NCBI GenBank assembly: GCA_963575645.1
Contig: OY754469.1
Location: 21,222,001-21,286,000 of the forward strand
Origin: Xanthostigma xanthostigma
Lineage: Eukaryota > Arthropoda > Insecta > Raphidioptera > Raphidiidae
DNA length: 64,000 nucleotides
Reading direction: 5' to 3'
Below the pieces are notes generated by a model, which did not search any database, was not told the origin of the DNA, and worked only from the letters and a program-made list of their open reading frames with translations. How positions within the stretch are numbered: position 1 is the first letter of the stretch; each line of letters opens with the position of its first letter. This document shows positions 20,309 to 64,000 of this stretch, one piece after another. A program made the position numbers and the translations under genes.

Positions 20309-20342
20309 CTGTGCAGGCTTTCACGGTCGGTGTTGTTCCAAA

Positions 20343-20598
20343 TCTTCTTGGTTTCGGGCTTGTAGGTCGTGGCCCATTGGTATTTTTACCTGACGTTTCG
20401 TCTACAACTGCGGTATCAAAGGCGATGTGGTAGCGAGCGAAGTATTCTTCTAGGCAGCCGACAAGTATGTGAGAGTCGCCTAGAGGGACACTTCGTCCGC
20501 TACCACATCACTTTTGGTAATGTCTACCGCACTTGTAGACGAAACGTCAGGTAGAAATACCAATAGGCCACGACCTACAAGCCCGGAAACCAAGAAGA
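20343..20598. mobile_element. Near-perfect foldback with 'gacgaaacgtcagg' motif, possibly Penelope-type
   Basis: The left arm from tcttcttggtttcgggcttg (20,343) is mirrored by the right arm ending ccaagaaga (20,598). Pairing continues inward through ggtcgtggcc, acctgacgtttcgtctaca and gatgtggtagcg to a small loop near 20,470. Each arm carries gtagacgaaacgtcagg. On the plus strand, gtctac (20,522) and gtagac (20,535) form a stem followed by gaaa. Penelope-like elements commonly carry hammerhead ribozymes with a 'gaaacgtc' core, and the upstream phrase gcaggctttcacggtcgg fits such elements. The CTGATGA half of the core is degenerate. The foldback is clear; the family is tentative. Confidence 0.6.
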
Positions 20599-23500: not shown

Positions 23501-24140
23501 AAAAAGAAAATATTAAAATAATCTATTGTACACATAATGTTTATTCTGGAATGACTGAATAACTAGTTGGCTTCTTTTAATCGGCTGCGAATTATCAGTT
23601 ACCAACACCAAAAATGTCCTGAAAAACCATCCATCGATGGACAAAACCTTCCTTCCATCAACCACAAAACCACTTCAAAACTATCTGCCATCGTTGGAAT
23701 ATTTTATATCAAAGAAAATTGAACTATAAAAAAATCATATATTTTGTCAATTATCTTTTAATTTCATCGTTGGATTATTTTTCTACACCATTCTCCAAGC
23801 GCTATCCTACATATTTTGTATTTATTTTTCACCATTTAATTTGAGTGAAAGTATTGATTAGTGAGAGGTGATGGTACAATATATAGTTATTTTTCCAAAT
23901 TGTAATTTAGACTAATATTCTTATTGAAATATTTTACACGCTGCGCGTGGAATCCTACATTGAACATCTACGCCTAAAATGGAATATACATCATTGAAAA
24001 TTATGGAATCTAAATTATCAACTCGATTATTTACAACAAAATAAACGTTTGAAAAACGAATGACCATTAATTTACAATGACACACACCATTTTTATCACG
24101 AAATATTTTTCAACTTCCATTTTATTATGGAAACAAACAA
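20599..24140. other. AT-rich, presumed intron upstream of the giant exon
   Basis: No coding exon can be supported. A 91-codon frame at 23,199-23,474 is the least AT-rich stretch but has no recognisable domain and no flanking splice consensus. Short inverted pieces around 21,800-21,950 (gttttgtcg / cgacaaaat) hint at another worn element. Confidence 0.4.
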
Positions 24141-24160
24141 TTAATACTTGACAGCAACAG
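24141..24160 (+). promoter_or_regulatory. Splice acceptor of the giant exon (tandem CAG)
   Basis: The open frame starts after the TAA at 24,142-24,144. Two CAG acceptors lie six bases apart, ending at 24,154 and 24,160 (ttgacagcaacag). A pyrimidine-rich stretch sits upstream at about 24,106-24,126. Either site leaves two bases that complete a codon, so the upstream intron is phase 1, and the two choices differ by exactly two residues. I took the first AG after the pyrimidine tract as the exon start. The tract is not strong, so the choice is uncertain. Confidence 0.6.
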
Positions 24161-27100
24161 CGTCTCCTCAAGATGATGATGATTCTTTAGATACTGATGG
24201 TTTCCGTGAAGAACAATACCTACTCGAAACTCCTACATCTGGGGATGATGATATTCCGACAGTTAAATCTACATATCTGGACGATTATCAACAACACCCG
24301 CGGCAGTTAGAAGAGATTGGTCCTAACGATATTAACACATATGACAATATTCAACAATATTACAAAGATCAGGCAAAACTATTTGCCGAAGAAAGGACTT
24401 ACTTAGCATCTAGTGAAGATTTAGATCCTGATGCATTAGTGACGCCTGACAAAAAAACACCTGAAAAAAAGAGGGTTACTATAGATGAAAATGTCAAAGG
24501 GACACATGAAATTGAAGCACTGACGGGTATTATCCGAACTGGGACTGACAGTTACAAATCCATTGAAACTGATCCTGTACGCCCAGGTGAGTTAAAAATA
24601 CGAAGCATTACATCACCTGAAGAAAAAGGAGCAAAGGATTCTAAAAAGCCAGAAGATTACGATCGTAAATTTGAACGTCTTGTAGAACGTCTTCATGGAG
24701 GTGGAAAAGATAAACCACCCGAAAAAAATCACGAAGAAGACATTTATATAAAAACTAAAGACGGCACCGAAAGAAAAGAAAAATTGAAAATATCATTCAA
24801 GGATGGAGAAACTGGGAAGGTTCAGGACGAAACTTTTAAGTTTCATGATGAAAATACGACAACAGGAAGCACACGAGGCTTATCCAAAGGTGTTATTGAA
24901 ATAACAAGACAGGTTACAGGGTTCGTTGATGAACAAGGTAAATCATCAACCGTATTTAAAACAGAAACGCATAAAGTAACAGGTATTGTAACAAAAAATG
25001 AGCAAGATATTAGCGAAAGGCCTTGCGACGGTATTGACGATGACAAATATAGCAAGAACTCTAAAATTATTGAACAAGATGAAACAATTAAAACTACATT
25101 AACTGATGACGGCAAACACGTAACTCGGGGTACGTCTCCCTTAGATAAAAAAGCAATTACTGAATCTCCTGATCCTGTAACTCCAAGCCCAGTTACGACA
25201 AGTGGCAAACAATTGCCACCTACATTAGAATTGGTAATAGGACGCAAAGAAGTTCGCACTAGAGAAGCGTCAGCTACAGCTGAAAGTCGATTAACACTGT
25301 ATGGTACACGAGATGTTGAAATTTCAATACGTTCACAAAGTCATATTTCTGTCACAACTACAAGACGAGACACTTCGGGAAAAGAAACTTCTGAAAGAGT
25401 TGATGTCGGATTGACTGCATCAGCTGGAACTGGAGGATCGCGATCTCCAGATGAAATTATATCTACTCCAACTGAAAAGAAAGATATATATATAATTCCA
25501 CCACCCCCTACAAGTGATGAAAGTATTACAGAAGTCACGAAAGGTGAGCGAAAAAGAGAAGAACAAGTAAATTTTAGTGGGAAGAAAAGTGTATATCGTT
25601 ATGAAAGCGCTGACGCAACAAGTGACCTAAATTTTGAATCCCCTACAACTGAAGAAAGTGTATCACATCATATTACAGACACTGGCATATCATTAACGCG
25701 TGGAACCACTACAGACACAACATTGACCAGTCCTGCACATCGACCTCCAGGTGATATGATGCCGACTACAGGATTTGTATCGGACGCGGTACTTGATGCA
25801 GATGCTGAAGAAATGGAACTCACTGATGCCGGATTAAGTCCTATACAAGCAGACGAAGTTGAACTACCCCAAACAGAATTGGCATTTATGGAAGAAGAAA
25901 TCGTCTTAACACATTACACTGACACTGGGACAAGTCCTATTGAATTCGTAGAAAGTACATCTGCAGCTATTTCACAGATTGACACGTCAGAAGCAGGTAC
26001 TTTAACAGACCAAATTGATACCAAAGATGCCTCAGTTAGTCCTATAAGACCTGAAGAAAGTCCGCCTTTAATTGCATTGTCAGCAGATGATAAAGATGTA
26101 TTAGACAAAAGAAGGGGGTCTGGAGATGTTCGAGCTATGGTACGAATGCTAGAAGAAAATGTGCAACAACAAAAATCGCCACTTCATACAGAAAAGTTAA
26201 GAAAGAAAAGAGAAATAATTGTTGATTCTGAAGACGAATTGTCAAGTTTAAAAGAAGAAGAAGTTCCTATACGTGGCTCAACAGAAACATTAGGCCCCTC
26301 GGATGATGAAGGAAAACTAATACTTAAAATAGAAGAAGACAAAATTTGCAAAGTACTTCCATATACTGAAGAAAAAACCAGTAAAGTATTTCCATATATT
26401 GAAGAAAAAATCAGTAAAACAAGTCCACATATCGAAGACAAAGCCATTATAGAAGAAATTGAACGAAAAGATCTAGATATTATAGAACAAAAATTAACAG
26501 CTAAAGAAACTGTCAGACAATTCGAAGAGAAAGTGACAGTACAAACTGAAACAACAAAAACAGAAGTTCATGTCACCCCCACACACGTAAAAGTAGGTCC
26601 GAAGATAGCGCAACTTCAAAAAATATTTTCACAACCATCTTCAGAAACAGAAGATGAAGGCGACGATTACATCATAAGCAAAAAACTAGTTACTAAAGAA
26701 TTTGTAATGAAAACAGTGCCTAAACCTAGTGACAAAGTATATATTACGTCAAAACCTGAAGAAATAATTAAGACTGAAGAAAAACTAATAATAATCGACG
26801 ACGACGATAAATTAAATACGATAGAAAAACCACCATTCAAAAATCTACCAATTACTCCACCGGAAATATATCCACCTATATCGCAAGTTATTAAAACAAT
26901 TGAAAAACGCATTGCGACCGAAAAAACAAAACCGAGAACACCAAATCGTGATTTAAAAAAAAGTGATATTAAAGATATTAAGGCTAGTGATTTAGAGGAA
27001 GATGAAGTTTTGACAATAATAACTAATGAAGCAAAATCTCAAAAAGATAGTAAAGAATTAACTAAAATTATTACCAAACCAAAAGAATTCATATACGAAA

Positions 27101-30100
27101 AATTAGAAGAGTTAGTAAATATTACTCATTCTGTACTTCAATCAATAGAAAAAAGTGAAATGTTGCCTAAAGAAATCATCAAGTTAAAAGAAAAACAATA
27201 TGTATATCAAACAATAGAACAAACAACATACGATAAATTAAGGGAATTAATATGTTTAAGTCAAGATGTATTGCATGCAATGAACCAGCTGACTGCGTCA
27301 GATGAAGCGCACACAAAAGAAATAGAAATAGTTACTTCTAAATACATTCTTAGAGACAAAATTGAAGAACTATATAACGTTCTCGAAACCGTATCAACGT
27401 CAACACAGTTTCCAAGTGCAATTAATATAATATCTAAAATAGACGAAGACGAAAAAACAATTTTACCTAAAGAACATATAATTAATTGTAAACTAAAAGA
27501 ATTAGATTCAATATTCAAAACAGTATTAGGTTCTATAGACTATTCAATTGAAAAATTAAAAATTGATCAAACTACGAGTATTAGCCCAGTAAATCAATTG
27601 GAAAAAGACGAAAACATTCAAGATAAACTTTTAGAATTAGTAAAAACTAGTCAAGATGTCATAAAATCAATGGAACGTCCAACACAAATTTATACAACTG
27701 TTATTCCAGAAAAAACTGTTAAAACTAAAGGAGAGTTACAAAAGACTGAAAAAATATATAAAGAAACTCAAAACGAGCCAAAGAAAGATGAAATGAAAAT
27801 CAAAGACGATAATTTAAAAGAAAGTGTTTGCGAACCTTCCGAAATGCTTTATAGAGAAGTAGAAAACAAAGAAGAAGTAGATATAACTGAAGATGAGAAA
27901 TTATCTGATTTAATAATACTAAAAGAAAATAGAACTCAACCAACGGATACAAAAACGGATTCTGCATATACAAAGGAAAAAGAAATGATAAAAGAAATTG
28001 AAAAATGTATAGAAAAAGAAGTAATCGTATCTCAAAAACAAAGAACTGTAAAACAATTTTCGGATTCTATTGAAGAAGCTGAAATATTAAAAGAAATAGA
28101 ACATGAGCCTGCATGTGAAAAAATTGTATTGCAGAAAAAGGTATCCGAGAAAAAAGTCACCCTTGATGAAAAAACAAAATTATCAAAAGAAACGAAAACT
28201 ACAGAAAAACTTATATCGATTAAAAAATCTTCTGTTCAAGAAATTTCTCAAGCAGCAAAAAGTAAAGAGCAACAAAAAGGAAATATTTATAAAGATACTG
28301 TAGACAAAATAGAAGATATATACGTGGAAAATATTAAAAAACTTGTAGTAGATACAAAAGAATCTGCTAAAACAGAAATATTTCAATTGCGTGTACAAGA
28401 AAAACCGGTCACAGTCACAGAATTAATTTTAAATAAAACTACAATGGAAAATGTTTCAAAAACATCTGAGAAAGAAATTCTTACTGCAAATGAAATAGAA
28501 AAGGAGGTTATTGACGATGAAAAAGAGTCTACCGATAAAGATAAGCCGGAATCTAAAATTTCAAAATCACCTACAATAGGGACTACTGTTAAAGCAGAAC
28601 CAGTATCAAAATATAGTGAAGAAAAAATGTCACCAAGAGATGAAAAGGAATCTCCTGTTGAAAAAGAACCAGTATCAGAAACCATTAAAGGAAAAAAACC
28701 ACCGATTGATAAAAAATCGGCGGGCTCAGAAATTAGTAAATCACCTGAAAAAGGATCTCCTGTCACAGCAGAACCAGTATTAGATATTATTGACGAAAAA
28801 ATTTCACCCACTGAAAAAAAACTAGCGTTAACGAAAATATCTAAATCTCCTAAAAAAGAATCTCCGGTTAAAGAAGAACCATTATCAGAAAGTATTAAAG
28901 GTGAAATAACACCGATTGATAAAATATCACCGGTAACGGAAATGTCTAAATCACCTGAAAAAGATACTCCTCTTAAAGCAGAATTAGTATCAGAAATTAT
29001 TGATAAAAAAATTTCACCCTCTGATGAAAAGCTACCGCTAACTGAAATTCCTAAATCGCCTACAAAGGAATCTCCCGTTGAAAAAGAACTAGTATCAGAA
29101 ACTACTGAAGGAAAAGTAACACCGATTGATAAAAAATCGCCGGTATCGGAAATTTCTAAATCGCCTGGAAAAGAATCCTCCGTTGAAGAAGTCTCAGTAT
29201 CAGAAACTCTTAAAGAAGAAAAAACACCGATTGATAAAATATCACCGGCAACGGACGTTTCTAAGACACCTGAAAAAGAATCTCCTGTTAAAGCAGAATC
29301 AGTTACAGAATTTATTGTCGAAAAAATTTCACCCACTGAAGAAAAACTACCGTCAACTAAAATTCCTAAATCGCCTACAAAGGAATCTCCCGTTGAAAAA
29401 GAACAAGTATCAGAAACTACTGAAGGAAAAGTAACACCGATTGATAAAAAATCGCCGGTATCGGAAATTTCTAAATCACCTGGAAAAGAATCACCCGTTG
29501 GAGAAGTCTCAGTATCAGAAACTCTTCAAGAAGAAAAAGAAACGATTCATAAAATATCACCGGTAACGGACGGTTCTAAGTTACCTAAAAGAGAATCTCC
29601 TGTTAAAGCCGAGTCAATTTCAGAACTTATTGACGAAAAAATTTCATCCACTGATGAAAAACTACCGCTAACTGAAATTCCCAAATCGCCTTTAAAGGAA
29701 TCTCACGTTGAAAAAGAACTAGTATCAGAATCTACTGAAGGAAAAGTAACGCCGATTGATAAAAAATCGCCGGTATCGGAAATTTCTAAATCACCTGAAA
29801 AAGAATCTCCCGTTGAAGAAGTCTCTGTATCAGAAACTCTTAAAGAAGAAAAAACACCGATTGATAAAATATCACCGGCAACGGACGTTTCTAAGACACC
29901 TGAAAAAGAATCTCCTGTTAAAGCAGAATCAGTTACAGAATTTATTGTCGAAAAAATTTCACCCACTGAAGAAAAACTACCGCCAACTAAAATTCCTAAA
30001 TCGCCTACAAAGGAATCTCCCGTTGAAAAAGAACTAGTATCAGAAACTACTGAAGGAAAAGTAACACCGATTGATAAAAAATCGCCGGTATCGGAAATTT

Positions 30101-33100
30101 CTAAATCACCTGGAAAAGAATCACCCGTTGGAAAAGTCTCAGTATCAGAAACTCTTCAAGAAGAAAAAGAAACGATTCATAAAATATCACCGGTAACGGA
30201 CGTTTCTAAGTTACCTAAAAGAGAATCTCCTGTTAAAGCCGAGTCAATTTCAGAACTTATTGACGAAAAAATTTCATCCACTGATGAAAAACTACCGCTA
30301 ACTGAAATTCCCAAATCGCCTTTAAAGGAATCTCCCGTTGAAAAAGAACTAGTATCAGAATCTACTGAAGGAAAAGTAACACCGATTGATAAAAAATTGC
30401 CGGTATCAGAAATTTCTAAATCACCTGAAAAAGAATCCCCCGTTGAAGAAGTCTCAGTATCAGAAACTCTTAAAGAAGAAAAAACACCGATTGATAAAAT
30501 ATCACCGGTAACGGACGTTTCCAAGTTACCTGAAAGAGAATCTCCTGTTAAAGCCGAGTCAATTTCAGAACTTATTGACGACGAAATTTCATCCACTGAT
30601 AAAAAAATTCCGCTAACTGAAATTCCCAAATCGCCTTTAAAGGAATCTCCCGTTGAAAAAGAACTAGTATCAGAATCTACTGAAGGAAAAGTAACACCGA
30701 TTGATAAAAAATCGCCGGTATCGGAAATTTCTAAATCGCCTGGAAAAGAATCCCCCGTTGAAGAAGTCTCAGTATCAGAAACTCTTAAAGAAGAAAAAAC
30801 ACCGATTGATAAAATATCACCGGCAACGGACGTTTCTAAGACACCTGAAAAAGAATCTCCTGTTAAAGCAGAATCAGTTACAGAATTTATTGTCGAAAAA
30901 ATTTTACCCTCTGATGAAAAACTACCGCTAACTGAAATTCCTAAATCGCCTACAAAGGAATCTCCCGTTGAAAAAGAACTAGTATCAGAAACTACTGAAG
31001 GAAAAGTAACACCGATTGATAAAAAATCGCCGGTATCGGAAATTTCTAAATCGCCTGGAAAAGAATCCCCCGTTGAAGAAGTCTCAGTATCAGAAACTCT
31101 TAAAGAAGAAAAAACACCGATTGATAAAATATCACCGGCAACGGACGTTTCTAAGACACCTGAAAAAGAATCTCCTGTTAAAGCAGAATCAGTTACAGAA
31201 TTTATTGTCGAAAAAATTTTACCCTCTGATGAAAAACTACCGCTAACTGAAATTCCTAAATCGCCTACAAAGGAATCTCCCGTTGAAAAAGAACTAGTAT
31301 CAGAAACTACTGAAGGAAAAGTAACACCGATTGATAAAAAATCGCCGGTATCGGAAATTTCTAAATCGCCTGGAAAAGAATCCCCCGTTGAAGAAGTCTC
31401 AGTATCAGAAACTCTTAAAGAAGAAAAAACACCGATTGATAAAATATCACCGGCAACGGACGTTTCTAAGACACCTGAAAAAGAATCTCCTGTTAAAGCA
31501 GAATCAGTTACAGAATTTATTGTCGAAAAAATTTTACCCTCTGATGAAAAACTACCGCTAACTGAAATTCCTAAATCGCCTACAAAGGAATCTCCCGTTG
31601 GAAAAGAACTAGTATCAGAAACTACTGAAGGAAAAGTAACACCGATTGATAAAAAATCGCCGGTATCGGAAATTTCTAAATCATCTGGAAAAGAATCCCC
31701 CGTTGAAGAAGTCTCAGTATCAGAAACTCTTAAAGAAGAAAAAACACCGATTGATAAAATATCACCGGCAACGGACGTTTCTAAGACACCTGAAAAAGAA
31801 TCTCCTGTCAAAGCAGAATCCGTTACAGAATTTATTGTCGAAAAAATTTTACCCTCTGATGAAAAACTACCGCTAACTGAAATTCCTAAATCGCCTACAA
31901 AGGAATCTCCCGTTGAAAAAGAACTAGTATCAGAAACTACTGAAGGAAAAGTAACACCTATTGATAAAAAATCGCCGGTATCGAAAATTTCTAAATCGCC
32001 TGGAAAAGAATCCCCCGTTGAAGAAGTCTCAGTATCAGAAACTCTTAAAGAAGAAAAAACACCGATTGATAAAATATCACCGGCAACGGACGTTTCTAAG
32101 ACACCTGAAAAAGAATCTCCTGTTAAAGCAGAATCAGTTACAGAATTTATTGTCGAAAAAATTTTACCCTCTGATGAAAAACTACCGCTAACTGAAATTC
32201 CTAAATCGCCTACAAAGGAATCTCCTGTTGAAAAAAAACTAGTATCAGAAACTACTGAAGGAAAAGTAACACCGATTGATAAAAAATCGCCGGTATCGGA
32301 AATTTCTAAATCGGCTGGAAAAGAATCCCCCGTTGAAGAAGTCTCAGTATCAGAAACTCTTAAAGAAGAAAAAACACCGATTGACAAAATATCACCGGCA
32401 ACGGACGTTTCTAAGACACCTGAAAAAGAATCTCCTGTCAAAGCAGAATCCGTTACAGAATTTATTGTCGAAAAAATTTTACCCTCTGATGAAAAACTAC
32501 CGCTAACTGAAATTCCTAAATCGCCTACAAAGGAATCTCCCGTTGAAAAAGAACTAGTATCAGAAACTACTGAAGGAAAAGTAACACCGATTGATAAAAA
32601 ATCGCCAGTATCGGATATTTCTAAATCGCCTGGAAAAGAATCCCCCGTTTTAGAAGTTTCAGTATCAGAAACTCTTAAAGAAGAAAAAACACCGATTTAT
32701 AAAATATCACCGGCAACGGACGTTTCTAAGACACCTGAAAAAGAATCTCCTGTTAAAGCAGAATCAGTTACAGAATTTATTGTCGAAAAAATTTTACCCT
32801 CTGATGAAAAACTACCGCTAACTGAAATTCCTAAATCGCCTACAAAGGAATCTCCCGTTGAAAAAGAACTAGTATCAGAAACTACTGAAGGAAAAGTAAC
32901 ACCGATTGATAAAAAATCGCCGGTATCGGAAATTTCTAAATCGCCTGGAAAAGAATCTCCCGTTGAAGAAGTCTCAGTATCAGAAACTCTTAAAGAAGAA
33001 AAAACACCGATTGATAAAATATCACCAGCAACGGACGTTTCTAAGACACCTGAGAAAGAATCTCCTGTTAAAGCAGAATCAGTTACAGAATTTATTGTCG

Positions 33101-36100
33101 ACAAAATTTTACCCTCTGATGAAAAACTACCGCTAACTGAAATTCCTAAATCGCCTACAAAGGAATCTCCCGTTAAAAAAGAACTAGTATCAGAAACTAC
33201 TGAAGGAAAAGTAACACCGATTGATAAAAAATCGCCGGTATCGGAAATTTCTAAATCGCCTGGAAAAGAATCCCACGTTGAAGAAGTCTCAGTATCAGAA
33301 ACTCTTAAAGAAGAAAAAACACCGATTGATAAAATATCACCGGCAACGGACGTTTCTAAGACACCTGAAAAAGAATCTCCTGTTAAAGCAGAATCAGTTA
33401 CAGAATTTATTGTCGAAAAAATTTTACCCTCTGATGTAAAACTACCGCTAACTGAAATTCCTAAATCGCCTACAAAGGAATCTCCCGTTGAAAAAGAACT
33501 AGTATCAGAAACTACTGAAGGAAAAGTAACACCGATTGATAAAGAATCGCCAGTATCGGAAATTTCTAAATCGCCTGGAAAAGAATCCCCCGTTGAAGAA
33601 GTCTCAGTATCAGAAACTCTTAAAGAAGAAAAAACACCGATTGATAAAATATCACCGGCAACGGACGTTTCTAAGACACCTGAAAAAGAATCTCCTGTTA
33701 AAGCAGAATCAGTTACAAAATTTATTGTCGAAAAAATTTTACCATCTGATAAAAAACTACCGCTAACTGGAATTCCTAAATCGCCTACAAAGGAATCTCC
33801 CGTTGAAAAAGAACTGGTATCAGAAACTACTGAAGGAAAAGTAACACCGATTGATAAAAAATCGCCAGTATCGGAAATTTCTAAATCGCCTGGAAAAGAA
33901 TCCCCCGTTGAAGAAGTCTCAGTATCAGAATCTCTTAAAGAAGAAAAAACACCGATTGATAAAATTTCACCGGCAACGGACGTTTCTAAGACACCTGAAA
34001 AAGAATCTCCTGTTAAAGCAGAATCAGCTACAGAATTTATTGTCGAAAAAATTTTACCCTCTGATGAAAAACTACCGCTAACTGAAATTCCTAAATCGCC
34101 TACAAAGGAATCTCCCGTTGAAAAAGAACTAGTATCAGAAACTACTGAAGGAAAAGTAACACGGATTGATAAAAAATCGCCGGTATCGGAAATTTCTAAA
34201 TCGCCTGGAAAAGAATCCCCCGTTGAAGAAGTCTCAGTATCAGAAACTCTTAAAGAAGAAAAAACACCGATTGATAAAATATCACCGGCAACGGACGTTT
34301 CTAAGACACCTGAAAAAGAATCTCCTGTTAAAGCAGAATCAGTTACAGAATTTATTGTCGATAAAATTTTACCCTCTGATGAAAAACTACCGCTAACTGA
34401 AATTCCTAAATCGCCTACAAAGGAATCTCCCGTTAAAAAAGAACTAGTATCAGAAACTACTGAAGGAAAAGTAACACCGATTGATAAAAAATCGCCGGTA
34501 TCGGAAATTTCTAAATCGCCTGGAAAAGAATCCCCCGTTGAAGAAGTCTCAGTATCAGAAACTCTTAAAGAAGAAAAAACACCGATTGATAAAATATCAC
34601 CGCCAACGGACGTTTCTAAGACACCTGAAAAAGAATCTCCTGTAAAAGCAGAATCAGTTACAGAATTTATTGTCGAAAAAATTTTACCCTCTGTTGAAAA
34701 ACTACCGCTAACTGAAATTCCTAAATCGCCTACAAAGGAATCTCCCGTTGAAAAAGAACTAGTATCAGAAACTACTGAAGGAAAAGTAACACCGATTGAT
34801 AAAAAATCGCCCGTATCGGAAATTTCTAAATCGCCTGGAAAAGTATCCCCCGTTGAAGAAGTCTCAGCATCAGAAACTCTTAAAGAAGAAAAAACACCGA
34901 TTGATAAAATATCACCGGCAACGGACGTTTCTAAGACACCTGAAACAGAATCTCCTGTTAAAGCAGAATCAGTTACAGAATTTATTGTCGAAAAAATTTT
35001 ACCCTCTGATGAAAAACTACCGCTAACTGAAATTCCTAAATCGCCTACAAAGGAATCTCCCGTTCAAAAAGAACTAGTATCAGAAACTACTGAAGGAAAA
35101 GTAAAACCGATTGATAAAAAATCGCCAGTATCGGAAATTTCTAAATCGCCTGGAAAAGAATCCCCCGTTGAAGAAGTCTCAGTATCAGAAACTATTAAAG
35201 AAGAAAAAACACCGATTGATAAAATTTCACCGGCAGCGGACGTTTCTAAGACACCTGAAAAAGAATCTCCTGTTAAAGCAGAATCAGTTACAGAATTTAT
35301 TGTCGAAAAAATTTTACCCTCTGATGAAAAACTACCGCTAACTGAAATTCCTCAATCGCCTACAAAGGAATCTCCCGTTGAAAAAGAACTAGTATCAGAA
35401 ACTACTGAAGGAAAAGTAACACCGATTGATAAAAAATCGCCGGTATCGGAAATTTCTAAATCGCCTGGAAAAGAATCCCCCGTTGAAAAAGTCTCAGTAT
35501 CAGAAACTCTTAAAGAAGAAAAAACACCGATTGATAAAATATCACCGGCAACGGACGTTTTTAAGACACCTGAAAAAGAATCTCCTGTTAAAGCAGAATC
35601 AGTTACAGAATTTATTGTCGAAAAAATTTTACCCTCTGATGAAAAACTACCGCTAACTGAAATTCCTAAATCGCCTACAAAGGAATCTCCCGTTGAAAAA
35701 GAACTAGTATCAGAAACTACTGAAGGAAAAGTAACACCGATTGATAAAGAATCGCCAGTATCGGAAATTTCTAAATCGCCTGGAAAAGAATCCCCCGTTA
35801 AAGAAGTCTCAGTATCAGAAACTCTTAAAGAAGAAAAAACACCGATTGATAAAATATCACCGGCAACGGACGTTTCTAAGACACCTGAAAAAGAATCTCC
35901 TGTTAAAGCAGAATCAGTTACAAAAATTATTGTCGAAAAAATTTTACCATCTGATGAAAAACTACCGCTAACTGAAATTCCTAAATCGCCTACAAAGGAA
36001 TCTCCCGTTGAAAAAGAACTAGTATCAGAAACTACTGAAGGAAAAGTAACACCGATTGATAAAAAATCGCCAGTATCAGAAATTTCTAAATCGCCTGGAA

Positions 36101-51100: not shown

Positions 51101-54100
51101 AAGAATCTCCTGTTAAAGCAGAATCAGTTACAGAATTTATTGTCGAAAAAATTTTACCCTCTGATGAAAAACTACCGCTAACTGAAATTCCTCAATCGCC
51201 TACAAAGGAATCTCCCGTTGAAAAAGAACTAGTATCAGAAACTACTGAAGGAAAAGTAACACCGATTGATAAAAAATCGCCAGTATCGGAAATTTCTAAA
51301 TCGCCTGGAAAAGAATCCCCCGTTGAAAAAGTCTCAGTATCAGAAACTCTTAAAGAAGAAAAAACACCGATTGATAAAATATCACCGGCAACGGACGTTT
51401 TTAAGACACCTGAAAAAGAATCTCCTGTTAAAGCAGAATCAGTTACAGAATTTATTGTCGAAAAAATTTTACCCTCTGATGAAAAACTACCGCTAACTGA
51501 AATTCCTAAATCGCCTACAAAGGAATCTCCCGTTGAAAAAGAACTAGTATCAGAAACTACTGAAGGAAAAGTAACACCGATTGATAAAAAATCGCCAGTA
51601 TCGGAAATTTCTAAATCGCCTGGAAAAGAATCCCCCGTTGAAGAAGTTTCAGTATCAGAAACTCTTAAAGAAGAAAAAACACCGATTGATAAAATATCAC
51701 CGGCAACGGACGTTTCTAAGACACCTGAAAAAGAATCTCCTTTTAAAGCAGAATCAGTTACAGAATTTATTGTCGAAAAAATTTTACCCTCTGATGAAAA
51801 ACTACCGCTAACTGAAATTCCTAAATCGCCTACAAAGGAATCTCCCGTTGAAAAAGAACTAGTATCAGAAACTACTGAAGGAAAAGTAACACCGATTGAT
51901 AAAAAATCGCCGGTATCGGAAATTTCTAAATCGCCTGGAAAAGAATCCCCTGTTGAAGAAGTCTCAGTATCAGAAACTCTTAGAGAAGAAAAAACACCGA
52001 TTGATAAAATATCACCGGCAACGGACGTTTCTAAGACACCTGAGAAAGAATCTCCTGTTAAAGCAGAATCAGTTACAGAATTTATTGTCGACAAAATTTT
52101 ACCCTCTGATGAAAAACTACCGCTAACTGAAATTCCTAAATCGCCTACAAAGGAATCTCCCGTTGAAAAAGAACTAGTATCAGAAACTACTGAAGGAAAA
52201 GTAACACCGATTGATAAAAAATCGCCAGTATCGGAAATTTCTAAATCGCCTGGAAAAGAATCCCCCGTTGAAGAAGTCTCAGTATCAGAAACTCTTAAAG
52301 AAGAAAAAACACCGATTGATAAAATATCACCGGCAATGGACGTTTCTAAGACACCTGAAAAAGAATCTCCTGTTAAAGCAGAATCAGTTACAGAATTTAT
52401 TGTCGAAAAAATTTTACCCTCTGATGAAAAACTACCGCTAACTGAAATTCCTAAATCGCCTACAAAGGAATCTCCCGTTGAAAAAGAACTAGTATCAGAA
52501 ACTACTGAAGGAAAAGTAACACCGATTGATAAAGAATCGCCAGTATCGGAAATTTCTAAATCGCCTGGAAAAGAATCCCCCGTTGAAGAAGTCTCAGTAT
52601 CAGAAACTCTTAAAGAAGAAAAAACACCGATTGATAAAATATCACCGGCAACGGACGTTTCTAAGACACCTGAAAAAGAATCTCCTGTTAAAGCAGAATC
52701 AGTTACAAAATTTATTGTCGAAAAAATTTTACCATCTGATGAAAAACTACCGCTAACTGAAATTCCTAAATCGCCTACAAAGGAATCTCCCGTTGAAAAA
52801 GAACTAGTATCAGAAACTACTGAAGAAAAAGTAACACCGATTGATAAAAAATCGCCAGTATCGGAAATTTCTAAATCGCCTGGAAAAGAATCCCCCGTTG
52901 AAGAAGTCTCAGTATCAGAAACTCTTAAAGAAGAAAAAACACCGATTGATAAAATTTCACCGGCAACGGACGTTTCTAAGACACCTGAAAAAGAATCTCC
53001 TGTTAAAGCAGAATCAGTTACAGAATTTATTGTCGAAAAAATTTTACCCTCTGATGAAAAACTACCGCTAACTGAAATTCCTAAATCGCCTACAAAGGAA
53101 TCTCCCGTTGAAAAAGAACTAGTATCAGAAACTACTGAAGGAAAAGTAACACCGATTGATAAAGAATCGCCAGTATCGGAAATTTCTAAATCGCCTGGAA
53201 AAGAATCCCCCGTTAAAGAAGTCTCAGTATCAAAAACTCTTAAAGAAGAAAAAACACCGATTGATAAAATATCACCGGCAACGGACGTTTCTAAGACACC
53301 TGAAAAAGAATCTCCTGTTAAAGCAGAATCAGTTACAGAATTTATTGTCGAAAAAATTTTACCATCTGATGAAAAACTACCGCTAACTGAATTTCCTAAA
53401 TCGCCTACAAAGGAATCTCCCGTTGAAAAAGAACTAGTATCAGAAATTACTGAAGGAAAAGTAACACCGATTGATAAAAAATCGCCAGTATCGGAAATTT
53501 CTAAATCGCCTGGAAAAGAATCCCCTGTTGAAGAAGTCTCAGTATCAGAAACTCTTAAAGAAGAAAAAACACCGATTGGTAAAATATCACCGGCAACGGA
53601 CGTTTCTAAGACACCTGAAAAAGAATCTCCTGTTAAAGCAGAATCAGTTACAGAATTTATTGTCGATAAAATTTTACCCTCTAATGAAAAACTACCGCTA
53701 ACTGAAATTCCTAAATCGCCTACAAAAGAATATCCCGTTGAAAAAGAACTAGTATCAGAAACTACTGAAGGAAAAGTAACACCGATTGATAAAAAATCGC
53801 CCGTATCGGAAATTTCTAAATCGCCTGGAAAAGAAACCCCCGTTGAAGAAGTTTCAGTATCAGAAACTCTTAAAGAAGAAAAAACACCGATTGATAAAAT
53901 ATCACCGGCAACGGACGTTTCTAAAACACCTGAAAAAGAATCTCCTGTTAAAGCAGAATCAGTTACAGAATTTATTGTCGAAAAAATGTTACCCTCTGAT
54001 GAAAAACTACCGCTAACTGAAATTCCTAAATCGCCTACAAAGGAATCTCCCGTTGAAAAAGAACTAGTATCAGAAACTACTGAAGGAAAAGTAACACTGA

Positions 54101-57100
54101 TTGATAAAAAATCGCCGGTATCGGAAATTTCTAAATCGCCTGGAAAAGAATCCCCCGTTGAAGAAGTCTCAGTATCAGAAACTCTTAAAGAAGAAAAAAC
54201 ACCGATTGATAAAATATCACCGGCAACGGACGTTTCTAAGACACCTGAGAAAGAATCTCCTGTTAAAGCAGAATCAGTTACAGAATTTATTGTCGACAAA
54301 ATTTTACCCTCTGATGAAAAACTACCGCTAACTGAAATTCCTAAATCGCCTACAAAGGAATCTCCCGTTGAAAAAGAACTAGTATCAGAAACTACTGAAG
54401 GAAAAGTAACACCGATTGATAAAAAATCGCCAGTATCGGAAATTTCTAAATCGCCTGGAAAAGAATCCCCCGTTAAAGAAGTCTCAGTATCAGAAACTCT
54501 TAAAGAAGAAAAAACACCGATTGATAAAATATCACCGGCAACGGACGTTTCTAAGACACCTGAAAAAGAATCTCCTGTTAAAGCAGAATCAGTGACAGAA
54601 TTTATTGTCGAAAAAATTTTACCCTCTGATGAAAAACTACCGCTAACTGAAATTCCTAAATCGCCTACAAAGGAATCTCCCGTTGAAAAAGAACTAGTAT
54701 CAGAAACTACTGAAGGAAAAGTAACACCGATTGATAAAAAATCGCCAGTATCGGAAATTTCTAAATCGCCTGGAAAAGAATCCCCCGTTGAAGAAGTCTC
54801 AGTATCAGAAACTCTTAAAGAAGAAAAAACATTGATTGATAAAATATCACCGGCAACGGACGTTTCTAAAACACCTGAAAAAGAATCTCCTGTTAAAGCA
54901 GAATCAGTTACAGAATTTATTGTCGAAAAAATTTTACCCTCTGATGAAAAACTACCGCTAACTGAAATTCCTAAATCGCCTACGAAAGAATATCCCGTTG
55001 AAAAAGAACTAGTATCAGAAACTACTGAAGGAAAAGTAACACCGATTGATAAAAAATCGCCCGTATCGGAAATTTCTAAATCGCCTGGAAAAGAAACCCC
55101 CGTTGAAGAAGTTTCAGTATCAGAAACTCTTAAAGAAGAAAAAACACCGATTGATAAAATATCTCCGGCAACGGACGTTTCTAAAACACCTGAAAAAGAA
55201 TCTCCTGTTAAAGCAGAATCAGTTACAGAATTTATTGTCGAAAAAATTTTACCCTCTGATGAAAAACTACCGCTAACTGAAATTCCTAAATCGCCTACAA
55301 AGGAATCTCCCGTTGAAAAAGAACTAGTATCAGAAACTACTGAAGGAAAAGTAACACCGATTGATAAAAAATCGCCCGTATCGGAAATTTCTAAATCGCC
55401 TGGAAAAGAAACCCCCGTTGAAGAAGTTTCAGTATCAGAAACTCTTAAAGAAGAAAAAACACCGATTGATAAAATATCTCCGGCAACGGACGTTTCTAAG
55501 ACACCTGAAAAAGAATCTCCTGTTAAAGCAGAATCAGTTACAGAATTTATTGTCGAAAAAATTTTACCCTCTGATGAAAAACTACCGCTAACTGAAATTC
55601 CTAAATCGCCTACAAAGGAATCTCCCGTTGAAAAAGAACTAGTATCAGAAACTACTGAAGGAAAAGTAACACCGATTGATAAAGAATCGCCAGTATCGGA
55701 AATTTCTAAATCGCCTGGAAAAGAATCCCCCGTTAAAGAAGTCTCAGTATCAAAAACTCTTAAAGAAGAAAAAACACCGATTGATAAAATATCACCGGCA
55801 ACGGACGTTTCTAAGACACCTGAAAAAGAATCTCCTGTTAAAGCAGAATCAGTTACAGAATTTATTGTCGAAAAAATTTTACCATCTGATGAAAAACTAC
55901 CGCTAACTGAATTTCCTAAATCGCCTACAAAGGAATCTCCCGTTGAAAAAGAACTAGTATCAGAAATTACTGAAGGAAAAGTAACACCGATTGATAAAAA
56001 ATCGCCAGTATCGGAAATTTCTAAATCGCCTGGAAAAGAATCCCCTGTTGAAGAAGTCTCAGTATCAGAAACTCTTAAAGAAGAAAAAACACCGATTGGT
56101 AAAATATCACCGGCAACGGACGTTTCTAAGACACCTGAAAAAGAATCTCCTGTTAAAGCAGAATCAGTTACAGAATTTATTGTCGATAAAATTTTACCCT
56201 CTAATGAAAAACTACCGCTAACTGAAATTCCTAAATCGCCTACAAAAGAATATCCCGTTGAAAAAGAACTAGTATCAGAAACTACTGAAGGAAAAGTAAC
56301 ACCGATTGATAAAAAATCGCCCGTATCGGAAATTTCTAAATCGCCTGGAAAAGAAACCCCCGTTGAAGAAGTTTCAGTATCAGAAACTCTTAAAGAAGAA
56401 AAAACACCGATTGATAAAATATCTCCGGCAACGGACGTTTCTAAAACACCTGAAAAAGAATCTCCTGTTAAAGCAGAATCAGTTACAGAATTTATTGTCG
56501 AAAAAATTTTACCCTCTGATGAAAAACTACCGCTAACTGAAATTCCTAAATCGCCTACAAAGGAATCTCCCGTTGAAAAAGAACTAGTATCAGAAACTAC
56601 TGAAGGAAAAGTAACACTGATTGATAAAAAATCGCCGGTATCGGAAATTTCTAAATCGCCTGGAAAAGAATCCCCCGTTGAAGAAGTCTCAGTATCAGAA
56701 ACTCTTAAAGAAGAAAAAACACCGATTGATAAAATATCACCGGCAACGGACGTTTCTAAGACACCTGAGAAAGAATCTCCTGTTAAAGCAGAATCAGTTA
56801 CAGAATTTATTGTCGACAAAATTTTACCCTCTGATGAAAAACTACCGCTAACTGAAATTCCTAAATCGCCTACAAAGGAATCTCCCGTTGAAAAAGAACT
56901 AGTATCAGAAACTACTGAAGGAAAAGTAACACCGATTGATAAAAAATCGCCAGTATCGGAAATTTCTAAATCGCCTGGAAAAGAATCCCCCGTTGAAGAA
57001 GTCTCAGTATCAGAAACTCTTAAAGAAGAAAAAACACCGATTGATAAAATATCACCGGCAACGGACGTTTCTAAGACACCTGAAAAAGAATCTCCTGTTA

Positions 57101-60100
57101 AAGCAGAATCAGTGACAGAATTTATTGTCGAAAAAATTTTACCCTCTGATGAAAAACTACCGCTAACTGAAATTCCTAAATCGCCTACAAAGGAATCTCC
57201 CGTTGAAAAAGAACTAGTATCAGAAACTACTGAAGGAAAAGTAACACCGATTGATAAAAAATCGCCAGTATCGGAAATTTCTAAATCGCCTGGAAAAGAA
57301 TCCCCCGTTGAAGAAGTCTCAGTATCAGAAACTCTTAAAGAAGAAAAAACATTGATTGATAAAATATCACCGGCAACGGACGTTTCTAAAACACCTGAAA
57401 AAGAATCTCCTGTTAAAGCAGAATCAGTTACAGAATTTATTGTCGAAAAAATTTTACCCTCTGATGAAAAACTACCGCTAACTGAAATTCCTAAATCGCC
57501 TACAAAGGAATCTCCCGTTGAAAAAGAACACGTATCAGAAACTACTAAAGGAAAAGTAATACCGATTGATAAAAAATTGCCGGTATCGGAAATTTCTAAA
57601 TCACCTGAAAAAGAATCCCCCGTTGAAGAAGTCTCAGTATCAGAAACTCTTAAAGAAGAAAAAACACCGATTGATAAAATATTACCGGCAACGGACGTTT
57701 CTAAGACACCTGAAAAAGAATCTCCTGTTAAAGCAGAATCAGTTACAGAATTTATTGTCGAAAAAATTTTACCCTCTGATGAAAAACTACCGCTAACTGA
57801 AATTCCTAAATCGCCTACAAAGGAATCTCCCGTTGAAAAAGAACTAGTATCAGAAACTACTGAAGGAAAAGTAACACCGATTGATAAAAAATCGCCAGTA
57901 TCGGAAATTTCTAAATCGCCTGGAAAAGAATCCCCCGTTGAAGAAGTCTCAGTATCAGAAACTCTTAAAGAAGAAAAAACACCGATTGATAAAATATCAC
58001 CGGCAACGGACGTTTCTAAGACACCTGAAAAAGAATCTCCTGTTAAAGCAGAATCAGTTACAGAATTTATTGTCGAAAAAATTTTACCCTCTGATGAAAA
58101 ACTACCGCCAACTGAAATTCCTAAATCGCCTACAAAGGAATCTCCCGTTGAAAAAGAACTAGTATCAGAAACAACTGAAGGAAAAGTAACACCGATTGAT
58201 AAAAAATCGCCGGTATCGGAAATTTCTAAATCGCCTGGAAAAGAATCCCCCGTTGAAGAAGTCTCAGTATCAGAAACTCTTAAAGAAGAAAAAACACCGA
58301 TTGATAAAATATCACCGGCAACAGACGTTTCTAAGACACCTGAGAAAGAATCTCCTGTTAAAGCAGAATCAGTTACAGAATTTATTGTCGACAAAATTTT
58401 ACCCTCTGATGAAAAACTATCGCTAACTGAAATTCCTAAATCGCCTACAAAGGAATCTCCCGTTGAAAAAGAACTAGTATCAGAAGCTACTGAAGGAAAA
58501 GTAACACCGATTGATAAAAAATCGCCGGTATCGGAAATTTCTAAATCACCTGAAAAAGAATCCCCCGTTGAAGAAGTCTCAGTATCAGAAACTCTTAAAG
58601 AAGAAAAAACACCGATTGATAAAATATCACCGGCAACGGACGTTTCTAAGTTACCTGAAAGAGAATCTCCTGTTAAAGCCGAGTCAATTTCAGAACTTAT
58701 TGACGAAAAAATTTCATCCACTGATGAAAAACTACCGCTAACTGAAATTCCCAAATCGCCTTTAAGGGAATCTCCCGTTAAAAAAGAACCAGTATCAGAA
58801 TCTACTGAAGGAAAAGTAACACCGATTGATAAAAAATCGCCGGTATCGGAAATTTCTAAATCGCCTGGAAAAGAATCCCCCGTTGAAGAAGTCTCAGTAT
58901 CAGAAACTCTTAAAGAAGAAAAAACACCGATTGATAAAATATCACCGGCTACGGACGTTTCTAAGACACCTGAAAAAGAATCTCCTGTTAAAGCAGAATC
59001 AGTTACAGAATTTATTGTCGAAAAAATTTTACCCTCTGATGAAAAACTACCGCTAACTGAAATTCCTAAATCGCCTACAAAGGAGTCTCCCGTTGAAAAA
59101 GAACTAGTATCAGAAACTACTGAAGGAAAAGTAACACCGATTGATAAAAAATCGCCACTATCGGATATTTCTAAATCGCCTGGAAAAGAATCCCCCGTTG
59201 AAGAAGTCTCAGTATCAGAAACTCCTAAAGAAGAAAAAACACCGATTGATAAAATATCACCGGCAACGGACGTTTCTAAGACACCTGAGAAAGAATCTCC
59301 TGTTAAAGCAAAATCAGTTACAGAATTTATTGTCGAAAAAATTGTACCCTCTGATGAAAAACTAGAGTTAACTGAAATTCCTAAATCGCCTACAAAGGAA
59401 TCTCTCGTTGAAAAAGAACTAGTATTAGAAACTACTGAAGGAAAAGTAACACCGATTGATAAAAAATCGCCGGTATCGGAAATTTCTAAATCGCCTGGAA
59501 AAGAATCCCCCGTTGAAGAAGTCTCAGTATCAGAAACTCTTAAAGAAGAAAAAACACCGATTGATAAAATATCACCGGCAACGGACGTTTCTAAGACACC
59601 TGAAAAAGAGTCTCCTGTTAAAGCAGAATCAGTTATAGAATTTATTGTCGAAAAAATTTTACCCTCTGATGAAAAACTACCGCTAACTGAAATTCCTAAA
59701 TCGCCTACAAAGGAATTTCCCGTTGAAAAAGAACTAGTATCAGAAACTACTGAAGGAAAAGTAACACCGATTGATAAAAAATCGCCGGTATCGGAAATTT
59801 CTAAATCGCCTGGAAAAGAATCCCCCGTTGAAGAAGTCTCAGTATCAGAAACTCTTAAAGAAGAAAAAACACCGATTGATAAAATATCACCGGCAACGGA
59901 CGTTTCTAAGACACCTGAAAAAGAATCTCCTGTTAAAGCAGAATCAGTTACAGAATTTATTGTCGAAAAAATTTTACCCTCTGATGAAAAACTACAGTTA
60001 ACTGAAATTCCTAAATCGCCTACAAAGGAATCTCCCGTTGAAAAAGAACTAGTATCAGAAACTACTGAAGGAAAAGTAACACCGATTGATAAAAAATCGC

Positions 60101-63100
60101 CGGTATCGGAAATTTCTAAATCGCCTGGAAAAGAATCCCCCGTTAAAGAAGTCTCAGTATCAGAAACTCTTAAAGAAGAAAAAACACCGATTGATAAAAT
60201 ATCACCGGCAACGGACGTTTCTAAGACACCTGAAAAAGAATCTCCTGTTAAAGCAGAATCAGTTACAGAATTTATTGTCGAAAAAATTTTACCCTCTGAT
60301 AAAAAACTACCGCTAACTGAAATTCCTAAATCGCCTACAAAGGAGTCTCCCGTTGAAAAAGAACTAGTATCAGAAACTACTGAAGGAAAAGTAACACCGA
60401 TTGATAAAAAATCGCCACTATCGGATATTTCTAAATCGCCTGGAAAAGAATCCCCCGTTGAAGAAGTCTCAGTATCAGAAACTCCTAAAGAAGAAAAAAC
60501 ACCGATTGATAAAATATCACCGGCAACGGACGTTTCTAAGACACCTGAAAAAGAATCTCCTGTTAAAGCAGAATCAGTTACAGAATTTATTGTCGAAAAA
60601 ATTGTACCCTCTGATGAAAAACTAGAGTTAACTGAAATTCCTAAATCGCCTACAAAGGAATCTCTCGTTGAAAAAGAACTAGTATTAGAAACTACTGAAG
60701 GAAAAGTAACACCGATTGATAAAAAATCGCCGGTATCGGAAATTTCTAAATCGCCTGGAAAAGAATCCCCCGTTGAAGAAGTCTCAGTATCAGAAACTCT
60801 TAAAGAAGAAAAAACACCGATTGATAAAATATCACCGGCAACGGACGTTTCTAAGACACCTGAAAAAGAGTCTCCTGTTAAAGCAGAATCAGTTATAGAA
60901 TTTATTGTCGAAAAAATTTTACCCTCTGATGAAAAACTACCGCTAACTGAAATTCCTAAATCGCCTACAAAGGAATTTCCCGTTGAAAAAGAACTAGTAT
61001 CAGAAACTACTGAAGGAAAAGTAACACCGATTGATAAAAAATCGCCGGTATCGGAAATTTCTAAATCGCCTGGAAAAGAATCCCCCGTTGAAGAAGTCTC
61101 AGTATCAGAAACTCTTAAAGAAGAAAAAACACCGATTGATAAAATATCACCGGCAACGGACGTTTCTAAGACACCTGAAAAAGAATCTCCTGTTAAAGCA
61201 GAATCAGTTACAGAATTTATTGTCGAAAAAATTTTACCCTCTGATGAAAAACTACAGTTAACTGAAATTCCTAAATCGCCTACAAAGGAATCTCCCGTTG
61301 AAAAAGAACTAGTATCAGAAACTACTGAAGGAAAAGTAACACCGATTGATAAAAAATCGCCGGTATCGGAAATTTCTAAATCGCCTGGAAAAGAATCCCC
61401 CGTTAAAGAAGTCTCAGTATCAGAAACTCTTAAAGAAGAAAAAACACCGATTGATAAAATATCACCGGCAACGGACGTTTCTAAGACACCTGAAAAAGAA
61501 TCTCCTGTTAAAGCAAAATCAGTTACAGAATTTATTGTCGAAAAAATTTTACCCTCTGATGAAAAACTACCGCTAACTGAAATTCCTAAATCGCCTACAA
61601 AGGAATCTCCCGTTGAAAAAGAACTAGTACCAGAAACTACTGAAGGAAAAGTAACACCGATTGATAAAAAATTGCCGGTATCGGAAATTTCTAAATCACC
61701 TAAAAAAGAATCTTCCGTTGAACAAGAATCAGTATCAGAAACTACTGAAGGAAAAGTAACACCGATTGATAAAAAATCGCCGGTATCGGAAATTTCTAAA
61801 TCACCTGAAAAAGAATCCCCCGTTGAAGAAGTCTCAGTATCAGAAACTTTTAAAGAAGAAAAAACACCGATTGATAAAATATCACCGGCAACGGACGTTT
61901 CTAAGACACCTGAAAAAGAATCTCCTGGTAAAGCAGAATCAGGTACAGAATTTATTGTCGAAAAAATTTTACCCTCTGATGAAAAACTACCGCTAACTGA
62001 AATTCCTAAATCGCCTACAAAGGAATCTCCCGTTGAAAAAGAACACGTATCAGAAACTACTGATGGAAAAGTAACACCGATTGATAAAAAATTGCCGGTA
62101 TCGGAAATTTCTAAATCACCTGAAAAAGAATCTCCCGTTGAACAAGAATCAGTATCAGAAACTACTGAAGGAAAAGTAACACCGATTGATAAAAAATCGC
62201 CGGTATCGGAAATTCCTAAATCACCTGAAAAAGAATCCCCCGTTGAAGAAGTCTCAGTATCAGAAACTCTAAAAAAAGAAAAAACACCGATTGATAAAAT
62301 ATCACCGGTAACGGACGTTTCTAAGTTACCTGAAAGACAATTTCCTGTTAAAGCCGAGTCAATTTCAGAACTTATTGACGAAAAAATTTCATCCACTGAT
62401 GAAAAACTACCGCTAACTGAAATTCCTAAATCGCCTACAAAGGAATCTCCCGTTGAAAAAGAACCAGTATCAGAAACTACTGAAGGAAAAGTAACACCGA
62501 TTGATAAAAAATTGTCGGTATCGGAAATTTCTAAATCACCTGAAAAAGAATCTCCCGTTGAACAAGAAACAGTATCAGAAACTTTTAAAGAAGAAAAAAC
62601 ACCGATTGATAAAATATCACCGGCAACGGACGTTTCTAAGACACCTGAAAAAGAATCTCCTGTTAAAGCAGAATTAGTTACAGAATTTATTGTCGAAAAA
62701 ATTTTACCCTCTGATGAAAAACTACCGCTAACTGAAATTCCTAAATCGCCTACAAAGGAATCTCCCGTTGAAAAAGAACTAGTATCAGAAACTACTGAAG
62801 GAAAAGTAACACCGATTGATAAAAAATCGCCAGTATCGGAAATTTCTAAATCGCCTGGAAAAGAATCCCCCGTTGAAGAAGTCTCAGTATCAGAAACTCT
62901 TAAAGAAGAAAAAACACCGATTGATAAAATATCACCGGCAACGGACGTTTCTAAGACACCTGAAAAAGAATCTCCTGTTAAAGCAGAATCAGTTACAGAA
63001 TTTATTGTCGAAAAAATTTTACCCTCTGATGAAAAACTACCGCTAACTGGAATTCCTAAATCGCCTACAAAGGAATCTCCCGTTGAAAAAGAACTAGTAT

Positions 63101-64000
63101 CAGAAACTACTGAAGGAAAAGTAACACCGATTGATAAAAAATCGCCAGTATCGGAAATTTCTAAATCGCCTGGAAAAGAATCCCCCGTTGAAGAAGTCTC
63201 AGTATCAGAAACTCTTAAAGAAGAAAAAACACCGATTGATAAAATATCACCAGCAACGGACGTTTCTAAGACACCTGAAAAAGAATCTCCTGTTAAAGCA
63301 GAATCAGTTACAGAAGTTATTGTCGAAAAAATTTCACCCACTGATGAAAAACTACCGCTAACTGAAATTCCTAAATCGCCTACAAAGGAATCTCCCGTTG
63401 AAAAAGAACTAGTATCAGAAACTACTGAAGGAAAAGTAACACCGATTGATAAAAAATCGCCGGTATCGGAAATTTCTAAATCGCCTGGAAAAGAATCCCC
63501 CGTTAAAGAAGTCTCAGTATCAGAAACTCTTAAAGAAGAAAAAACACCGATTGATAAAATATCACCGGCAACGGACGTTTCTAAGACACCTGAAAAAGAA
63601 TCTCCTGTTAAAGCAAAATCAGTTACAGAATTTATTGTCGAAAAAATTTTACCCTCTGATGAAAAACTACCGCTAACTGAAATTCCTAAATCGCCTACAA
63701 AGGAATCTCCCGTTGAAAAAGAACTAGTATCAGAAACTACTGAAGGAAAAGTAACACCGATTGATAAAAAATTGCCGGTATCGGAAATTTCTAAATCACC
63801 TAAAAAAGAATCTTCCGTTGAACAAGAATCAGTATCAGAAACTACTGAAGGAAAAGTAACACCGATTGATAAAAAATCGCCGGTATCGGAAATTTCTAAA
63901 TCACCTGAAAAAGAATCCCCCGTTGAAGAAGTCTCAGTATCAGAAACTTTTAAAGAAGAAAAAACACCGATTGATAAAATATCACCGGCAACGAACGTTT
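24155..64000 (+). CDS. Giant internal exon of a KSP-repeat cytoskeletal-type protein, 3' end outside window
   Basis: One plus-strand frame (codons begin at positions equal to 1 modulo 3) is open from just after a TAA at 24,142 to the window edge, about 13,280 codons with no stop. There is no in-frame ATG until the MM at 25,756, although the sequence before it reads as coding, so the exon must be entered by splicing. The protein is disordered-looking and rich in K, E, S, T and P. Residues 1 to about 1,470 (to 28,560) are unique, with acidic and basic patches such as VTPDKKTPEKKRVTID near 24,439. From 28,561 onward it is a tandem array of 35-residue KSP monomers. I see no enzymatic, ankyrin, Ig, spectrin or death domain in the window. 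What is known: insect and nematode ankyrins (Ank2, unc-44) have giant exons encoding long disordered tails, and futsch/MAP1B and neurofilaments carry KSP-type repeats. An ankyrin-type giant exon is my preferred guess; futsch-like, titin/PEVK-like or nesprin-like proteins remain possible. That it is coding is near certain; its identity is not. Confidence 0.9.
24584..24592 (+). promoter_or_regulatory. Perfect-consensus 5' splice site inside the exon
   Basis: The bases CAG|GTGAGT, with the cut after 24,586, match the metazoan donor consensus completely. The cut falls after the first base of a Gly codon (phase 1), the same phase as the acceptor at 24,154/24,160. An exon from the acceptor to here would be about 430 bases and symmetric. 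It could therefore be used on its own in a short isoform that skips the giant part. This is inference; no transcript evidence is available. Confidence 0.4.
25541..25549 (+). promoter_or_regulatory. Second donor-like site inside the exon
   Basis: AAG|GTGAGC, with the cut after 25,543, is a good donor match and again cuts in phase 1 within a Gly codon, as at 24,586. It would give an exon of about 1.39 kb. Two same-phase donors in front of the repeat array are compatible with graded isoform lengths. Chance occurrence is also possible in about 1.5 kb of sequence. Confidence 0.25.
27094..27675 (+). repeat. Five degenerate repeats of about 43 residues inside the giant exon
   Basis: Five related blocks occur in the coding frame, with cores YEKLEELVN (27,094), YDKLRELIC (27,229), RDKIEELYN (27,352), CKLKELDSIF (27,487) and DKLLELVKTSQDV (27,622). 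Spacing is 41 to 45 residues. Each core is followed by a hydrophobic, helix-like stretch of the type SQDVLxxME or HSVLQSIE, and LPKE lies before copies two and four. The pattern L-x-x-L with alternating charge suggests amphipathic helices. The copies are diverged in both DNA and protein, so this repeat is much older than the downstream array. Confidence 0.7.
28561..29052 (+). repeat. Degenerate edge copies of the 35-residue KSP monomer
   Basis: This segment contains diverged monomers of the same pattern as the main array: KSPTIGTTVKAEPVSK, ESPVEKEPVSE, KSPEKGSPVTAEPV, KSPKKESPVKEEPLSE and KSPEKDTPLKAELVSE, each followed by an I/TP-ID or ISP-type half. The first copies are irregular in length and sequence, and the last merges smoothly into the regular array at 29,053. 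Such worn copies at an array edge are expected where unequal exchange homogenises only the interior. Confidence 0.8.
40151..40375 (+). repeat. Shortened 225-bp unit of the array (first of six)
   Basis: Here the C monomer runs to FIVEK and then joins directly to TTEGKVTP of the next A monomer. Ninety bases (30 codons) are missing and the frame is kept. The same junction (gtcgaaaaaactactgaagg) recurs in units starting near 43,526, 46,586, 47,126, 49,871 and 50,411. An identical junction in all six implies one deletion event spread by duplication. Confidence 0.9.
44381..47580 (+). repeat. First copy of a 3.2-kb segmental duplication within the array
   Basis: This block of regular and shortened units is repeated at 47,666-50,865 with a constant offset of 3,285 bases. 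Diagnostic variants recur in order: ttttaaagcagaatc, gagaaagaatctcc, the cgttaaagaag pair, both 225-bp units and the actcttaataaagaa variants. The duplication is tandem and in frame (1,095 codons). Confidence 0.9.
47666..50865 (+). repeat. Second copy of the 3.2-kb segmental duplication
   Basis: This block matches 44,381-47,580 at an offset of 3,285 bases with only scattered single-base differences, for example attaat and ttggtaaaa near 47,666-47,775 and gaatctgtt near 50,041. Such low divergence inside a coding array implies a recent unequal exchange. Confidence 0.9.

Follow-up and report, generated by a model that had tools for sequence, protein, structure and literature searches.

A 57.5-kb open reading frame in Xanthostigma xanthostigma, probably the first giant exon in an ankyrin gene of the Ank2 type

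Can a reading frame that stays open over tens of kilobases be a single real coding exon, and to which gene would such an exon belong? This question is raised by a 64,000-nucleotide stretch of the genome of Xanthostigma xanthostigma (Insecta, Raphidioptera, Raphidiidae), the right-hand part of which is occupied by one uninterrupted open reading frame (ORF) on the plus strand. In the following, we refer to this stretch as the window. It corresponds to C6:21222001-21286000 (contig OY754469.1 of assembly GCA_963575645.1, 623 Mb in 28 contigs), and positions outside 1-64000 are given as the C6 position minus 21222000. For the analysis, 80 kb were added on each side of the window, resulting in a joined sequence of 224 kb. 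Judged by its sequence, the frame is very probably the first giant exon in an ankyrin gene of the Ank2 type, from which giant neuronal isoforms are made.

Within the window, the frame spans positions 24145..63999 and comprises 13,285 codons with no stop. The original prediction described it as a single coding exon of at least 39.8 kb (24155..64000, plus strand) that runs off the window edge, and suggested that the assembly be extended to the right. This description was borne out, but it understates the length: the right flank stays open to position 81696 (C6:21303696), so that the frame 24145..81696 comprises 19,184 codons, or 57.55 kb, with no stop before a TAG at 81697, and the exon would measure about 57.5 kb. 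A separate genome search for the repeat triplet described below also gives an open frame of 19184 residues. In the 24 kb to the left of the frame, the longest ORF has 143 codons (among ORFs of at least 90 codons). The reading as a single real coding exon is supported by the gene context, a matching splice phase, the avoidance of stops relative to a matched antisense frame and the composition of the encoded polypeptide.

The gene context consists of exons for ankyrin repeats, ZU5, UPA and the death domain, which are located on the same strand, between 73 and 5 kb to the left of the window. All four ORFs tested for ankyrin repeats match Ank families in Pfam (within C6:21148754-21160372), a result that refers to these four ORFs; members of the family have 24 repeats. 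A ZU5 domain is found at C6:21172582 (Pfam, 2.2e-21) and a UPA_2 domain in the ORF from -8146 to -7676 (Pfam, 6.6e-54). The first death-domain exon (C6:21216090-21216260) matches the Pfam death domain with 9.9e-10 on its own and with 2.5e-17 when joined to the second, an ORF near -4.8 kb. When UPA and death domain are compared with the PDB, Ankyrin-2 is the best match (5.5e-59), and the top four of 15 matches are Ankyrin-2, -1, -3 and -2. The giant frame, which starts at C6:21246145, about 30 kb past the death domain, is the first long ORF to follow it. It would thus be an exon of more than 3 kb downstream of UPA, which is how ankyrin long exons are defined in the accessible part of a survey of this family (Jegla et al., 2016, PMC5135030). 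The genome has four ZU5 loci, two of which resemble unc-5 and ZO-1 genes by eye. The fourth belongs to a second ankyrin gene, which lies on the minus strand of the same chromosome at a distance of about 1.5 Mb (near 19.75 Mb of C6, 19.745-19.755) and whose UPA and death-domain parts were identified by eye; no gene-strand ORF of more than 406 codons occurs in the 80 kb inspected beyond its ZU5 match in the downstream direction.

The splice phases connect these exons to the giant frame. The last upstream exon (at -4419) ends with GAAG/GTGAG, its donor at -3647 (C6:21218353) leaving one codon base over. The giant exon could open at ACAG/CA (exon from 24155, acceptor AG at 24153-24154) or, six bases later, at AACAG/CG (exon from 24161, acceptor AG at 24159-24160), and both openings require exactly one base. 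As the scores from an approximate matrix told little about them, the choice of these candidate acceptors rests on phase. We infer a junction from the exon ending at -3648 into the giant exon, which predicts a 27.8-kb intron from -3647 to 24154, the right part of which is represented by positions 1..24154 of the window; by eye, no coding exon was recognized in the plus-strand ORFs of this part.

The product of the ORF, about 19,180 residues, would have a mass of about 2,098 kDa and an isoelectric point of 4.86. It starts with an acidic, non-repeated lead of about 1,493 residues (24155..28640), which, searched as 1,494 residues, matches no Pfam family at E <= 1; its one PDB match (E 0.066) was taken as chance. 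The lead is followed by a tandem array of 35-residue (105-nt) units in 105-residue triplets (28641..64000 and onward to about 76400), and by a non-repeated tail of about 1,765 residues (76401-81696), all on the plus strand. The array measures about 47.7 kb, or roughly 455 units (length divided by 105). Adjacent units are about 50% alike. Adjacent triplets are mostly more than 90% alike in the sampled core, with the likeness declining toward both ends and most of all at the 3' end. Within the tail lies a basic segment of 342 residues (79186-80212, net charge +47) with the SxIP-type motif RTPSKIPRHQ. Over the whole polypeptide, S, E, T, D, K and P make up 69.6% of the residues, and S and E together 30.2%; in the two non-repeated parts, the S+E and six-residue shares are 20.6% and 56.3%, and 23.9% and 56.8%, respectively. 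Published ankyrin long exons are biased to the same six residues, with about 25% for S and E and more than 55% for all six (Jegla et al., 2016, PMC5135030).

Because a single open unit opens an entire tandem array, a stricter test than length is required. The 124 exact VSEISKSP anchors in the array delimit 123 intervals, of which we used the 104 that measure exactly 105 residues; the anchor was held fixed, and the other 19 intervals and the anchor-less parts of the array were left out. These 104 triplets, 82 of them distinct, have a mean identity to their own consensus of 98.0% at the nucleotide and 96.0% at the residue level. When the same base changes relative to the consensus are placed at random, 20.3 sense stops are expected (15.9 if only codons with a single change are counted), whereas none is seen. 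As the copies are related by duplication and the counts thus not independent, the one antisense frame in which the consensus likewise lacks stops served as a matched control: here, 20 stops are seen and 18.5 expected. Over the entire array, stops number 36 in this antisense frame and zero in the sense frame. Selection hence removes stops from the sense frame, which is kept open by selection and not by repetition alone. A 4,268-codon antisense ORF (window 51195-63998, minus strand; 4,812 codons with the flank), in which stops accrue at the rate expected under neutrality, is a by-product of the repeat.

These counts bear on a different explanation, namely that a satellite-like array resides in an ankyrin intron and is open only through its stop-free unit, with a short exon ending at 24587 or 25544. 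Strong phase-1 donors at both positions, near-neutral amino-acid change in the array and the openness of one antisense frame of the unit are in its favor. Apart from the difference between the sense and antisense frames, it is contradicted by the frame also being open over about 3,250 non-repeated codons flanking the array, and by the confinement of the repeat: in a genome search with the triplet, all 150 scored matches (165 candidates) are found in the giant frame, and there is hence no sign of a dispersed satellite. A scan of IMG/VR yielded nine pattern-matching stretches, none of which was upheld by tblastn, and thus gave no relative from this collection. We consider a satellite very improbable, and a chance array was dismissed on the basis of the stop test, the splice phase fit and the upstream ankyrin domains.

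Within the array, 2-kb segments at distances of 3,285, 2,520 and 3,465 nt show identities of 99.95%, 99.85% and 99.7%, respectively. The longest exact match measures 1,573 nt, and divergence is higher at the edges than in the core. Such near-identical blocks, together with more diverged edges, are the usual mark of unequal exchange, through which the array would grow and shrink in repeat-sized steps, with selection acting on the open frame and the general composition more than on the exact sequence. Its length would be expected to vary among individuals. Blocks and exact matches of this kind can also mislead assemblers, so that the giant exon could be real but its assembled length wrong, with copies collapsed or multiplied; a shift in the frame of the coding-like signal near the 3' end points in the same direction. 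However, 82 of the 104 triplets are distinct, a longest exact match of 1.6 kb is short against modern long reads, and the joined 224 kb contain zero N. An error in length appears unlikely to us, if a good deal less so than a satellite.

The array's 15,920 residues include 1,422 SP/TP sites, 423 KSP sites and no tryptophan. KSP-rich repeats recall Futsch/MAP1B-like or neurofilament-like proteins, and the frame might accordingly represent a separate single-exon gene of this type downstream of the ankyrin gene. Yet it shares the strand of the last ankyrin exon and fits its phase, its position and composition are as in published giant ankyrins, and its first 1,494 residues match no Pfam family (Futsch itself was not a query). 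We give a separate gene hardly any credence; the Futsch-like candidate was dismissed on the splice phase fit and the upstream ankyrin domains. The resemblance to neurofilament-type KSP repeats, which comprises dense KSP sites and an axonal context, is a likeness of working only.

As far as its sequence tells, the giant exon is of a known kind, an extreme member of the ankyrin giant exons of the Drosophila Ank2 L/XL type. According to the accessible part of the survey, ankyrin long exons are found throughout Bilateria and, in protostomes, follow the death domain. Their mean length is 8,103 +/- 4,850 bp (n = 30), and a subset contains repeat arrays, in which units of 36-228 bp recur from 5 to more than 160 times (Jegla et al., 2016, PMC5135030). 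The present exon has in common with these the position after the death domain, the richness in S and E and the repeat array, but is about seven times as long as their mean and has roughly 455 units. In Drosophila, Ank2 XL includes 93 repeats of 76 residues (Jegla et al., 2016, PMC5135030), and Ank2-L (450 kDa) and Ank2-XL (1,200 kDa) are described with roles in synapse stability and microtubule organization in the available part of a further study (Weber et al., 2019, PMC6703079). Common to both systems are the ankyrin gene, at least two long ORFs past the death domain, the biased composition and a repeat array, whereas the present exon alone would account for about 57.5 kb and 2.1 MDa, and has a 35-residue unit in 105-residue triplets. 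The longest annotated exons given in the accessible text for other insects, each with its gene unnamed, measure 32,355 bp in Istocheta aldrichi, 14,940 bp in Trichogramma kaykai, 13,185 bp in Drosophila nebulosa and 10,240 bp in Forficula auricularia. No exon longer than the present one was found in the open-access literature, and we claim no world record.

Further plus-strand ORFs follow the giant frame at 82328-86695 (1,456 codons), 100401-102878 (826 codons), 103315-118047 (C6:21325315-21340047; 4,911 codons), 118666-119556 (297 codons) and 125844-135131 (3,096 codons). They precede the next gene, marked by a pyruvate-dehydrogenase-like ORF at 154883 (by eye), and their strand, lack of stops, position and terminal donors make them candidate ankyrin exons; these donors are weak and of phase 1, with scores of 1.2 to 3.5. 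The 4,911-codon ORF contains a 219-nt (73-residue) tandem unit in 32.5 copies (109290-116398), with repeats of the FFSKKGEQ type. Compared by unit size alone, this unit is nearer to the 76-residue repeat of Ank2 XL, and the ORF may thus be the more XL-like one, with the giant exon as the counterpart of L. If the ORFs up to 135131 join the giant exon (29,766 codons in total), the result would be a titin-sized protein.

What could such a protein do? Ankyrin repeats bind membrane proteins, ZU5/UPA bind spectrin, and motifs of the SxIP type bind EB proteins at microtubule ends. In the predicted protein, ankyrin repeats, ZU5/UPA and the death domain would be followed by the residues of the giant exon, whose spacer is probably disordered, given its acidic and low-complexity sequence. 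This spacer would serve as a long, phosphorylation-tunable tether between the membrane/spectrin complex and axonal microtubules, with the basic tail making contact with the latter. We infer inclusion in the mRNA, a neuronal function, this spacer-and-microtubule-tether mechanism and polymorphism of the array. Only tentatively, and with somewhat more doubt than confidence, do we suggest that this is the longest animal coding exon yet described, in an ankyrin of more than 2.2 MDa whose spacer varies between individuals by whole repeat blocks. The exon would widen several-fold the range of sizes published for ankyrin giant exons and illustrate to what extent a single exon, and a single cytoskeletal tether, can lengthen with the frame still open. 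Should the distance or density of membrane-microtubule links be set by the spacer, array length or inclusion would be expected to track axon structure. For annotation, it calls for caution, as such giant exons may be missed, split or discarded as repeats.

Several observations weigh against this interpretation. On the approximate matrix, which is based on consensus frequencies, the two acceptors score weakly (1.0 for 24155 and 0.5 for 24161), and the only donors in the frame above our cut of 7 are at 24587, 25544 and 80672, all in phase 1 and none inside the array. The first two, CCAG/GTGAGT (24587..24588, plus strand, score 9.3) and AAAG/GTGAGC (25544..25545, plus strand, score 7.4), are strong possible alternative donors that would skip the array, so isoforms without it are possible. 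At the 3' end, following an A run, the coding-like signal changes from frame 0 to frame 2 at about 81650 and is in frame 0 again by about 81790, before it fades, with low scores, near 81950. This change may stem from an error in the assembly, from decay or from an exon end at another position; it would alter the exon length by less than 0.3 kb, and an end at 80672 would cut 1 kb. Upstream, a fragment presumed to be the second ZU5 remained without a match in the Pfam search. Among the SxIP motifs, one is in a basic setting and three others are in the acidic array. The function is drawn from relatives, and the assignment to Ank2 L/XL from position and from the second ankyrin gene being without a long exon. 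Lastly, distinct array variants comprise 133 nonsynonymous and 40 synonymous changes, with 124.4 and 42.2 expected, which is near neutral. Counted by occurrence, there are 396 and 200, respectively, with 431.6 and 148.5 expected, a mild silent excess; this pattern is consistent with a spacer in which length, charge and openness count for more than the exact residues.

The predicted ankyrin intron harbors further features. A gene for tRNA-Ile (AAT) is found at window positions 3814-3887 on the plus strand (ARAGORN, Rfam). Moreover, there are two inverted repeats, one with arms of 179 nt that are 98% complementary (9346-9524 / 10002-10180) and one with arms of 64 nt that are 94% complementary (20352-20415 / 20525-20588), both of which are possibly foldback transposable elements.

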